In this document: positions 9,036 to 13,416 of the stretch, in pieces
Position numbering within the stretch: the first letter of the stretch is position 1
Layout: each line of letters starts with the position of its first letter
NCBI GenBank assembly: GCA_015489065.1
Contig: WGAO01000080.1
Location: 1 to 36,756, forward strand
Reading direction: 5' to 3'
From: Thermotogaceae bacterium
GTDB lineage: Bacteria; Thermotogota; Thermotogae; Thermotogales; Thermotogaceae
DNA: 36,756 nt
Notes under the pieces: generated by a model
What the model was told of the DNA's origin: nothing
What the model saw: the letters and a program-made list of their open reading frames with translations, nothing else
Database searches by the model: none
Position numbers and translations under genes: made by a program

Positions 9036-9671
9036 TTGATAAACATGCACCTAGTTCTGGGACATGTTGTAGCTGATCATTCGTTTACCAACAATTACAA
9101 GATCAGGAATTACAGAGGGATGAAGCTTCTTAACCACATAGTTTGGTCTGTGTTTGCCGTACTTGCCTTCACCTTCGATACACTTCTAAATAACACAAAA
9201 GGAGTCATCGTTTTAAGTTCTTTCATAGCTTTTCATATTTGGGGAGATTATGAAAGAGTGAAACTGAATAGCGCGGGAAGAAAACGTATGATAGACATCC
9301 TGGAGCTCATTCTTCTCATTGGAGCAATCATAGCAAACTGGATAGTTCACGACAGATTCTACCAGTCTTTCCTTTCTTCTGAGTTTGTTTACTACCTAAT
9401 GGGAATGTCTGTCGTATCGACTGGGGTCACATATCTTTTCAGAAACTTCTATCCAGGAATTGAGGATATGTCAGATATAGAAGGAATTTCAGAGAGACTG
9501 GCTTTTTTCGTTTTCCTTCTCGCCGGAAAGATAGGATTCGCCTACTTATCGCTTGCGTTTGGATTACTCTACAGGCTCATCAGGATCAGAAAATACAATG
9601 CTAGTTGGTGGATGAGTCCGCTCTTTGGAATAGCAATCTCTTATCTGTGGAAAATCACTTTGTACAGGTGA
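9036..9671 (+). CDS. DUF3307-like membrane protein
   Basis: The start is TTG 9036, seven bases after AGGAGGGG; the ATG at 9045 would be too far from the SD. The 211-residue protein begins 'HLVLGHVVADHSFTNNY', followed by 'LLNHIVWSVFAVLAF', matching the DUF3307 pattern of a membrane helix with conserved His/Asp (L-x-x-H-x-x-x-D-x-x-x-Q/N) and a second His in the next helix. Five or six further helices follow. The family has no established biochemical function. It sits directly after the MMPL exporter and before a PPP phosphatase. Confidence 0.55.
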   Translation: MINMHLVLGHVVADHSFTNNYKIRNYRGMKLLNHIVWSVFAVLAFTFDTLLNNTKGVIVLSSFIAFHIWGDYERVKLNSAGRKRMIDILELILLIGAIIANWIVHDRFYQSFLSSEFVYYLMGMSVVSTGVTYLFRNFYPGIEDMSDIEGISERLAFFVFLLAGKIGFAYLSLAFGLLYRLIRIRKYNASWWMSPLFGIAISYLWKITLYR

Positions 9672-10294: not shown

Positions 10295-10323
10295 TTCAAT
10301 CCCAAGACTTGCTGTGTTATAAA
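10295..10323 (+). promoter_or_regulatory. Promoter of rlmN
   Basis: An extended -10 element TG-T-TATAAA lies at 10315-10323, with a weak -35 (TTCAAT, 10295-10300) at 17-base spacing. The implied start of transcription is near 10330, which puts the in-frame ATG 10323 inside the promoter and supports TTG 10344 as the true start of rlmN. Confidence 0.55.
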
Positions 10324-10343
10324 TGCTCGGAGGTGATGACCCG

Positions 10344-11387
10344 TTGAAGAGTATCATGGATATGGACTATGAAGATCTCAAAAGAGAAATAACCGAGAAC
10401 TTAGGATGGGAAAGGTATCGAGCAGACCAGATAGCAGATTGGATATACAACAAGCATGTTTTGGATTTTTCCAAGATGACGAACCTCTCAAAAGAGTATA
10501 GAAAAATTCTGAGCGAGAATTACTACACGGATCTGCTGGAGCTCGTCGATAAGCAGATTTCGAAAATAGACAGGACCACAAAGTACCTCTGGAAACTCCG
10601 CGATGGAAATACGATAGAGTCTGTTTTGATATTCTATCCAAACAGAGTTTCTGCTTGCATATCTACACAAGTAGGTTGTCCTGTAGGATGTAAATTCTGC
10701 GCTACGGGAATGAGCGGGTTTGTCAGGAATTTATCAACTGGGGAAATCGTGAGCCAGATATTACACATGGAAATGGAAGCTAGGCTTAGAATAGGAAATG
10801 TCGTCTTCATGGGAATGGGAGAGCCTTTTTTAAATTATGAAAATGTTATAAAGAGCATAAAGATAATCAACCACCAAAAAATGATAGGAATAGGGATAAG
10901 GCATATAACTGTTTCAACCGTCGGAATTCCGGACAAGATAGTCTCTTTTGCTAAAGATGGAATGAACGCAAGACTGGCTTTATCTCTTCATGCAGCTTAT
11001 AATCACAAGAGGGATTTTCTCGTTCCGATAAATATCAAATACCCTATAGAAGAGATCATACAAGCCGCTAAGGAGTACCAAAAGATCACGAACAACCGTG
11101 TGTCGATAGAATACATAATGATAAAAGAGCTTAACGATTACGATTCAGATGCAGAGAAACTTGTAGAGGTTCTCAAGGGCTTAAAAGTCTTCGTTAACCT
11201 CATACCTGTGAATCCTGTTGTAAAAGATTTTCAAAGACCATCCAGAAGGAGAATAGAGGCGTTCAAAAAGATCTTGGAAAGTCACGGAATAGAAGTGGAA
11301 GTGAGAACAGAAAAAGGAACGGATATAGATGCTGCGTGTGGTCAGCTCAGAATAAGAAACAAACAACTCAAGAGAGCTTTCAAGTAG
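10344..11387 (+). CDS. rlmN: Dual-specificity RNA methyltransferase RlmN
   Basis: This radical-SAM enzyme methylates C2 of adenosine 2503 in 23S rRNA and A37 in some tRNAs. I start it at TTG 10344, seven bases after a perfect GGAGGTGA, giving 347 residues and the usual N-terminus (M-K-S-I-M-D...). The [4Fe-4S] motif is C112-x3-C116-x2-C119 ('GCPVGCKFC'). The two catalytic cysteines are visible as C105 ('VSACIST') and C332 ('DAACGQL'), at the same spacing from the cluster as in E. coli. 'FMGMGEPFLN' is the SAM-binding strand motif. Confidence 0.95.
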   Translation: MKSIMDMDYEDLKREITENLGWERYRADQIADWIYNKHVLDFSKMTNLSKEYRKILSENYYTDLLELVDKQISKIDRTTKYLWKLRDGNTIESVLIFYPNRVSACISTQVGCPVGCKFCATGMSGFVRNLSTGEIVSQILHMEMEARLRIGNVVFMGMGEPFLNYENVIKSIKIINHQKMIGIGIRHITVSTVGIPDKIVSFAKDGMNARLALSLHAAYNHKRDFLVPINIKYPIEEIIQAAKEYQKITNNRVSIEYIMIKELNDYDSDAEKLVEVLKGLKVFVNLIPVNPVVKDFQRPSRRRIEAFKKILESHGIEVEVRTEKGTDIDAACGQLRIRNKQLKRAFK

Positions 11388-11405
11388 GGTGGGAGGGGAT
11401 CAAAG

Positions 11406-12164
11406 TTGAAGCAAAAGATTTTGGTGGTGGAAAATGACAAGCAGATGAGCGCCATGATATCGAAAGCTCTAAAGGCAGCTTCCTTCGATGTCGTAACCGT
11501 TCCTTCTTTGGAAAAAGCTAAGGAGGCTCTGGAAAAGGAAAAGTTTGATCTGGTAATAATAGAGGATGACTCGGATTCCAAAGAACTTCTCAGGGAGATA
11601 AGAACGGCAAAAGATTATGAAACAATTCCCGTTATATTTCTCGGAAAGGGAAACGACATCGACAGGATAATCGCTCTGGAAATGGGAGCAGACGATTATG
11701 TGACAAGACCCTTCAATACTAAAGAACTCATTTCAAAGATAAAAGCTATTTTTAGAAGAATAAGATGGGATAAAAAAGTGGATCGAAAAAATCAACCGAA
11801 AATGTCATTTGGACGGTTGGAAATAGATAAGGAAAGCTTTGAAGTCAAGAAGGACGGAAAGAGTATTCACCTCACACCACTTGAATTCGACCTTCTATGT
11901 TTCCTGGCAGAAAACGAGGGTAGGGTCTTCTCAAGAGAAACACTTCTGGACAGGCTTTGGGGATACGACTATTTTGTAGATACAAGAACTGTTGATGTTC
12001 ACATAAGAAGACTTAGGACAAAGATAGAAGAGAATCCGTCCAAGCCTCGTTATATAATCACAGTTAGGGGAAAGGGATATAAATTCGTGGATCCTGATAA
12101 GGAGGGAGAGAATGATACCCTACGAAGTGATAAAGAAGAAGAGAGATGGGAAAAAACTGAATAA
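11406..12164 (+). CDS. OmpR/PhoB-type regulator with degenerate receiver
   Basis: A TTG start follows GGGAGGGGATC. The 252-residue protein has an N-terminal receiver domain (1-118) and a C-terminal winged-helix DNA-binding domain (about 135-230; 'LTPLEFDLLCFLAENEGRVF', 'RTVDVHIRRLRTKIE', 'VRGKGYKF'). The DNA-binding half is fully canonical. The receiver is not. Aligned to PhoB, the metal-binding acid D10 is N10, the phosphoacceptor D53 is E53, the switch Thr is G80 and the conserved Lys is R101, although 'GADDYVTRPF' keeps the frame. It is therefore unlikely to be a normal phosphorylation switch and may be constitutively active. No histidine kinase is adjacent. It overlaps the next gene by 53 bases. 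Confidence 0.9.
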   Translation: MKQKILVVENDKQMSAMISKALKAASFDVVTVPSLEKAKEALEKEKFDLVIIEDDSDSKELLREIRTAKDYETIPVIFLGKGNDIDRIIALEMGADDYVTRPFNTKELISKIKAIFRRIRWDKKVDRKNQPKMSFGRLEIDKESFEVKKDGKSIHLTPLEFDLLCFLAENEGRVFSRETLLDRLWGYDYFVDTRTVDVHIRRLRTKIEENPSKPRYIITVRGKGYKFVDPDKEGENDTLRSDKEEERWEKTE

Positions 12165-13416
12165 GGAAGAAATAGAGTTCATGGTAATGGGATATGTCAA
12201 TGGAGAGATACCGGACTATCAGATGGCAGCGCTCTTAATGGCCATATTTTTCCAACATCTAGATGATGAGGAGAGGGCAACCTTAACGGAGATAATGGCA
12301 AAGTCTGGTGACATGATAGACCTCTCAGACATCGGTCATAAGATAGTTGATAAACATTCGAGTGGTGGCGTTGGTGACAAGACAACACTCGTTGTCGCAC
12401 CCATGGTAGCATCTCTTGGAGTTCCCATAGCAAAAATGTCAGGTAGAGCTTTAGGTCATACTGGTGGAACGATTGATAAATTGGAATCTATACCAGGGTT
12501 TGAAACCTCACTCAGCCTTGAGAAATTTAAAGAAAATGTTAGAAGATATGGAATAGCAATTGCCGGTCAGACGGCAAACCTTGCACCTGCTGACAAAAAG
12601 ATATACGCCCTTAGAGATACAACAGCCACGGTTGATGAGATATCGTTGATATCTGCCAGCATAATGAGCAAAAAACTAGCAGGTGGAGCCGATGCATTCG
12701 TGTTGGATGTAAAAGCTGGAAGCGGTGCTTTCATGAAAACAGTAGAAGATGCCACGGAGCTCGCGAAGGCAATGGTGAGTATAGGAAAAGCCCACAAAAA
12801 AGACACGGTGGCACTCGTCACAAATATGGAAGAGCCTCTTGGAAAATTCGTAGGAAACTCGTTAGAAGTTTTGGAAGCGATAGAGACACTAAAAGGGAAC
12901 TACGATGAAAAATTTTTCGAGCTTTGCCTTGAACTTTCATCTTACATGGTCGAACTCTCAGGGAAAATGGACAGAGAGAAAGCAAAAGAAGAGCTTTTGA
13001 AAAACATAGAGAATGGCAGAGCGCTTGAAAAGTTCAGAGATCTGGTCAAAGCTCAAGGAGGAGACGAAAGGGTTGTCGATGACCCGGAAAGTATTCTCCC
13101 GATATCCGAAAAAACATTCGATGTAAAATCGACAAAAAGCGGATTTGTGAAGAATATAGACACGGAAGAGATAGGAGTGGCGTCTATACTCCTCGGAGCT
13201 GGGAGGATCAAAAAGGGTGATAAGATAGATCATTCTGTAGGTATAAAGATACTGAAAAAGATAGGGGACAAAGTAGAAAAAGGAGAGACAATTGCCGTCA
13301 TATACTATTCGGAAAGATCGAATTTAGACGATGCGGCTAAAAAGATACTGAATGCATATGAAATAGGCTCTGAACAAACAGAAAAGTTGCCGATGATATA
13401 CGAGGTGATCCGCTGA
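12112..13416 (+). CDS. pdp: Pyrimidine-nucleoside phosphorylase
   Basis: The enzyme splits thymidine, uridine or deoxyuridine with phosphate into the base and (deoxy)ribose 1-phosphate, salvaging pyrimidines in the cytoplasm. The 434-residue length is normal. The family signature region is clear: 'KHSSGGVGDKTT' (residues ~83-94, phosphate-binding), 'KMSGRALGHTGGTIDKLESI' (~109-128), and 'ALRDTTATVDEISLISASI' with the substrate-contacting Arg and Ser. The start at ATG 12112 follows GGAGGGAGAG and lies inside the regulator gene. I cannot distinguish a Pdp from a thymidine phosphorylase (deoA) preference by eye. Confidence 0.93.
   Translation: MIPYEVIKKKRDGKKLNKEEIEFMVMGYVNGEIPDYQMAALLMAIFFQHLDDEERATLTEIMAKSGDMIDLSDIGHKIVDKHSSGGVGDKTTLVVAPMVASLGVPIAKMSGRALGHTGGTIDKLESIPGFETSLSLEKFKENVRRYGIAIAGQTANLAPADKKIYALRDTTATVDEISLISASIMSKKLAGGADAFVLDVKAGSGAFMKTVEDATELAKAMVSIGKAHKKDTVALVTNMEEPLGKFVGNSLEVLEAIETLKGNYDEKFFELCLELSSYMVELSGKMDREKAKEELLKNIENGRALEKFRDLVKAQGGDERVVDDPESILPISEKTFDVKSTKSGFVKNIDTEEIGVASILLGAGRIKKGDKIDHSVGIKILKKIGDKVEKGETIAVIYYSERSNLDDAAKKILNAYEIGSEQTEKLPMIYEVIR

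Follow-up and report, generated by a model that had tools for sequence, protein, structure and literature searches.

The window analysed here, a stretch of 36,756 nucleotides from a genome of the heat-loving Thermotogaceae, carries a gene for an OmpR/PhoB-type regulator that, judged by sequence comparison, is the orthologue of a two-component response regulator found throughout the Thermotogota. This orthologue has been stripped of its kinase gene, of a neighbouring 7-TM protein gene and of the phosphorylation chemistry, and has probably been kept as a phosphorylation-independent DNA-binding regulator.

The positions of the gene and of its parts are listed in Table 1. The spacing between the Shine-Dalgarno-like GGGAGGGG and the TTG start of the open reading frame is 7 nt. 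Both halves of the protein are recognised by Pfam above cut-off (Response_reg, PF00072, at residues 5–113 with 4e-14; Trans_reg_C, PF00486, at residues 151–227 with 2e-33), which along with a fold match to MtrA assigns it to the OmpR/PhoB response-regulator family. Among NCBIfam models it comes closest to YycF, PhoB and MtrA but stays far under the cut-off of each; with 204 bits vs 340 for YycF and 197 vs 296 for PhoB (NCBIfam curated cut-offs) the protein is an equivalog of neither YycF (WalR) nor PhoB. The AlphaFold model (pLDDT of about 90 over most of the receiver, disordered tail) matches full-length OmpR/PhoB regulators, with MtrA as the best fold match. Regulator and pdp, the latter with an AGGAGG of its own at 12100–12105, are probably transcribed together. 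Scans for Rfam families and tRNAs gave no matches in the window. Positions 9036–9671 of the window, 5' of a Metallophos phosphatase gene and rlmN, encode a predicted protein of 211 aa that neither Pfam nor NCBIfam recognises and that is conserved in the genus.

Table 1. Features of the regulator gene and its neighbours (positions in the window).
Feature	Position	Strand	Evidence
rlmN, directly 5' of the regulator	10323..11387	+	
Shine-Dalgarno-like GGGAGGGG of the regulator gene, within the 18-nt gap 3' of rlmN	11391..11398	+	sequence
Atypical response regulator of OmpR/PhoB type (252 aa; start codon TTG)	11406..12164	+	
Pseudo-receiver domain, residues 3-118	11412..11759	+	Pfam, orthologue alignment, AlphaFold model
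E9-N10, Mg-binding acidic pair with Asn in place of the second Asp	11430..11435	+	
E53-D54, phosphoacceptor Asp replaced by Glu, four-residue deletion directly after	11562..11567	+	orthologue comparison
G80, switch Ser/Thr lost, one-residue deletion	11643..11645	+	orthologue comparison
R101, replaces the conserved Lys	11706..11708	+	orthologue comparison
Winged-helix DNA-binding domain, residues 133-228	11802..12089	+	Pfam, conservation count
Recognition-helix region DTRTVDVHIRRLRTKIE, residues 192-208	11979..12029	+	conservation count
Overlap of the regulator 3' end with pdp, 53 bases; codes for the disordered C-terminal tail	12112..12164	+	
pdp (pyrimidine-nucleoside phosphorylase)	12112..13416	+	

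A match to the regulator was found in 103/103 Thermotogota genomes searched; G022, G054 and G056 gave a fragment or weak match only, and 100 full-length orthologues, including that of the window, were scored for the canonical receiver set D/E-D, D, S/T, K. In place of these residues the window receiver has E9-N10, E53, G80 and R101. An earlier note on this DNA had read the same replacements from the sequence, and the comparison with 97 orthologues bears it out, with four catalytic positions out of five changed and an acidic residue (E9) still heading the DD pair. The absence of the usual "LP" behind the phosphosite, also noticed there, turns out to be a deletion: the β3-α3 loop is four residues shorter than in the orthologues, and the whole "xxLP" element is gone. 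The β4-α4 region is shorter by one residue (after β4), which makes the alignment of G80 ambiguous, as it may pair with the following Ala instead. With E-N, E, G and R where a phosphorylatable response regulator has DD, D, S/T and K, the protein is an atypical one with a pseudo-receiver, defined by the absence of at least one of five conserved receiver residues (PMC12632262).

The canonical set (D/E-D, D, S/T-A, K) is present in 97/97 full-length orthologues outside genus g1 and is lost in all three g1 species, represented by three separate MAGs, none of them a complete genome (G000, which is that of the window, G098 and G099). The receivers of G000 and G098 both read E-N, E, G, R and, bearing E53, are aspartate-less receivers (ALR). 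That of G099 reads E-D, D, G, R; it keeps D10 and D53, is not aspartate-less, has the same deletions as the other two and looks like an intermediate in the loss. The alignment of Thermotogota orthologues proposed in the earlier note thus gives a divided answer: the replacements are kept in G000 and G098 and partly in G099, whereas the standard set prevails everywhere outside the genus. As canonical orthologues occur only there, the distribution shows a recent loss confined to this lineage, not an error in the original observation. Separate assemblies show the same states in G098 and some of them in G099, which rules out chance misreading or sequencing error. A swap for a canonical paralogue was likewise rejected: the most similar other OmpR regulator of the genome has just 33% identity.

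Both halves of the regulator are under purifying selection, the receiver being more relaxed. Between G000 and G098 pN is 0.116 vs a pS of 0.81 in the receiver and 0.052 vs 0.74 in the DNA-binding domain; as synonymous sites are saturated, omega was dropped in favour of pN vs pS, and the values are bounds on selection only. Where conservation among the other orthologues reaches 95% or more, the window protein is altered at 19/42 positions in the receiver and at 6/64 in the DNA-binding domain (Fisher p 4e-5), with none of the 17 in the recognition-helix region, so the DNA-binding half is intact, as the earlier note had held. A pN far below pS together with an invariant recognition helix argues that the protein is functional. 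Within the receiver R87, E92, D96, D97, Y98, E107 and R118 are kept and R111 is replaced by Lys; we take these to be the positions of the OmpR/PhoB α4-β5-α5 dimer face and the switch Tyr. The conserved positions 12, 14 and 16 of α1, the kinase-docking helix, are lost.

The loss extends to the neighbouring genes. Outside g1 a sensor kinase gene lies directly 3' of the regulator in 91/97 full-length orthologues; it encodes roughly 410–430 aa and is followed in most genomes by pdp. The Thermotoga copy comprises PAS, HisKA and HATPase domains, the closest models being PnpS/PhoR/WalK. In the three genomes of the sister genera g2 and g3 (G087, G088 and G089) its place is taken by a truncated mini-kinase of 216–220 aa, encoded between a canonical regulator and pdp (L118:4549-5196, L119:1667-2326 and L120:5086-5745, each on the minus strand). 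This protein is soluble, without TM or PAS segments, and matches HATPase_c weakly (4e-6 in G089). It has an N box and an H-box-like HD(I/V)R but no DTGPGIP box (degenerate ATPase). Its model (pLDDT 74) is similar to histidine-kinase cores, and it may be a phosphotransferase or phosphatase. In g1 there is no gene between regulator and pdp and no cognate kinase gene nearby, in agreement with the earlier note, which saw no adjacent kinase gene in the window. When the full kinase and the mini-kinase were sought elsewhere in the g1 genomes, the best matches were distant paralogues or none, and relocation of the kinase within these genomes was rejected on this ground. A canonical orthologue without detectable adjacent kinase occurs in the three genomes of family f7 (G005-G007; L148, L150, L151), where the kinase must be elsewhere or unrecognised; the notion that a missing adjacent kinase always means receiver decay was rejected on these genomes.

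Each of the 11 other Thermotogaceae (L118-L126, L197, L198) has, directly 5' of the regulator, a gene for a 7-TM protein of roughly 220 aa that may be a partner of the two-component pair; in the sister genera this gene sits between rlmN and the regulator. It is missing from this position in the three g1 genomes, where rlmN stands instead, and was not detected elsewhere in them. The C-terminal tail of the regulator is encoded by the start region of pdp, in a different frame, and is confined to the genomes that have lost the kinase gene. In G099 it adds a few residues to the ancestral protein, and in G000 and G098 it is longer still by about 13. This would fit a scar left by the kinase deletion, after which a stop codon was lost. 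The overlap with pdp, whose length had been given correctly, would accordingly be a remnant of kinase gene loss. As the adjacency of pdp is ancestral in the phylum (in the order regulator, kinase, pdp), the proposal that the protein specifically controls this gene finds no support.

The order of events was judged on a tree of pdp, which is independent of the regulator and from which G057 and G034 were left out (the G057 pdp was probably read in a wrong frame). Genera g1, g2 and g3 form one group (100/99) with g2 as the sister of g1 (99/94), and from this topology the transition from full kinase via mini-kinase to no kinase is the most economical. G099 has D53 and D10 but already G80, R101 and the deletions; it is therefore most economical that Ser/Thr and Lys were lost before the changes of Asp53 to Glu and Asp10 to Asn. 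Computed on the fixed pdp tree, and as rough figures from short alignments, the branch lengths relative to pdp exceed the background roughly 18-fold on the g1-g3 stem, 21-fold on the g1 stem and 5-fold within g1 for the receiver, and about 6-, 19- and 4-fold on the same three branches for the DNA-binding domain. The living relatives thus appear to show kinase truncation and deletion, then loss of Ser/Thr, Lys and loop, and finally the exchange of Asp for Glu. It is quite possible, though we hold it with somewhat more doubt than confidence, that this genus and its sister genera keep on view how a phylum-wide two-component system was dismantled step by step: from a full kinase through a soluble mini-kinase, maybe a phosphotransferase or phosphatase, to no kinase, with the receiver losing Ser/Thr and Lys before Asp, and with a surviving regulator that is input-free or alternatively sensed while its regulon is otherwise conserved.

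The kinase gene, the Mg-site Asp, the phospho-Asp, the switch Ser/Thr and the Lys have all been lost while selection keeps the gene, so that independence of phosphorylation is the best inference; this part of the interpretation in the earlier note stands, while Glu mimicry and the specific control of pdp are not supported. In the ancestral state the regulator would have been paired, in a regulator-kinase-pdp operon, with a PhoR/WalK/PnpS-like histidine kinase. The g1 lineage has lost the kinase gene, the upstream 7-TM gene and the phosphorylation chemistry of the receiver, and has probably retained the protein as a phosphate-independent DNA-binding regulator. The pseudo-receiver may still dimerise via the retained α4-β5-α5 surface, and binding to the ancestral DNA sites would be constitutive; on dimerisation and DNA binding without phosphate the analysis offers the kept dimer-face residues and the predicted model. 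The output of the regulator would then be set by its abundance or by a non-phosphate input.

A regulator locked in its active state by E53, as an inherent phosphomimic, is an unlikely alternative. Among the replacements in aspartate-less receivers Glu is the most frequent, and in some regulators it can mimic phosphorylation (PMC4395418; PMC12632262), but such mimicry is thought to act through the conserved Thr and Lys, and E53 is left with neither partner. In G099 the kinase, Ser/Thr, Lys and the loop are gone while D53 is present; E53 came later and was not the enabling step, and the last place of the Asp to Glu change in the apparent order argues against phosphomimicry as a trigger. The DNA binding of ChxR, moreover, survives replacement of its Glu (PMC4395418).

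A separate observation concerns Cys165 (window 11898-11900), a residue specific to the genus that lies in the DNA-binding domain, within its first helix. It is the sole Cys of the regulator and is found in 3/3 g1 species, and 92/94 other orthologues are free of Cys. Since the fold matches of the regulator model include RitR structures, a redox-responsive regulator of the RitR kind could be imagined, yet we consider it improbable: Cys165 does not occupy the position of RitR C128, the reading depends on a single residue, and there are no redox-linked neighbour genes.

Phosphorylation at the neighbouring acidic D54, by another kinase or acetyl phosphate, would agree with the conservation of D54 in 3/3 g1 species and with the presence of other histidine kinases in G000 (e.g. 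at C92, C11 and C55), but is very improbable in a receiver that has kept neither the Mg-site Asp nor the switch Ser/Thr nor the Lys and whose docking helix has lost conserved positions. That the gene is decaying towards loss, without present function, is hardly to be believed despite the roughly 5-fold excess of receiver substitutions per pdp substitution within g1, as the reading frame is intact in three divergent species, pN is far below pS and the recognition helix is unaltered.

With an unchanged recognition helix it becomes directly testable whether the kinase-free regulator and its kinase-controlled Thermotoga orthologue govern the same genes. Pseudo-receivers are common. The mechanisms by which they are switched on and off have been called a mystery (PMC12632262), and among open-licence papers we found no published account of the Thermotogota case. 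Its direct orthologues are the regulators of the Thermotogota regulator-kinase-pdp pair (a YycF/PhoB-like regulator with a PnpS/PhoR/WalK-like kinase), which stand beside pdp, share about 48-62% identity with the window protein and have an identical recognition helix; they differ in that kinase and receiver chemistry are lost in the window lineage. Streptococcus RitR, an OmpR orphan that is likewise aspartate-less, has a similar fold (5vfa, 5u8k), but it senses redox state on its own Cys128, whereas the sole Cys of the window protein lies in the DNA-binding domain. Chlamydia ChxR is an OmpR/PhoB orphan with Glu at the phosphosite and secondary structure missing near the pocket, and it is active without phosphorylation and independently of its Glu (PMC3960148, PMC4395418); it is not orthologous to the window protein, which is known here from sequence and model. 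On the best reading, the closest kind would be the phosphorylation-independent orphan regulators Campylobacter jejuni CosR and Helicobacter pylori HP1043 (HsrA), OmpR-type proteins that have lost the phospho-Asp and in which the receiver is more variable while the DNA-binding domain is conserved; the cognate kinase gene (cosS, directly 3') is found in relatives only (PMC3938529, PMC8345958). In Campylobacter, cosS lies 3' of cosR in non-thermotolerant species and is missing in thermotolerant ones, in which the phospho-Asp of CosR is replaced and the receiver is more variable while the DNA-binding domain is conserved (PMC3938529). The loss in the Thermotogota is independent of these cases and belongs to another phylum. 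It also differs in that the phospho-Asp is replaced by Glu, not Asn/Ser, with a loop deletion in addition, and in that the Thermotogota relatives retain a mini-kinase intermediate and a partly converted receiver.
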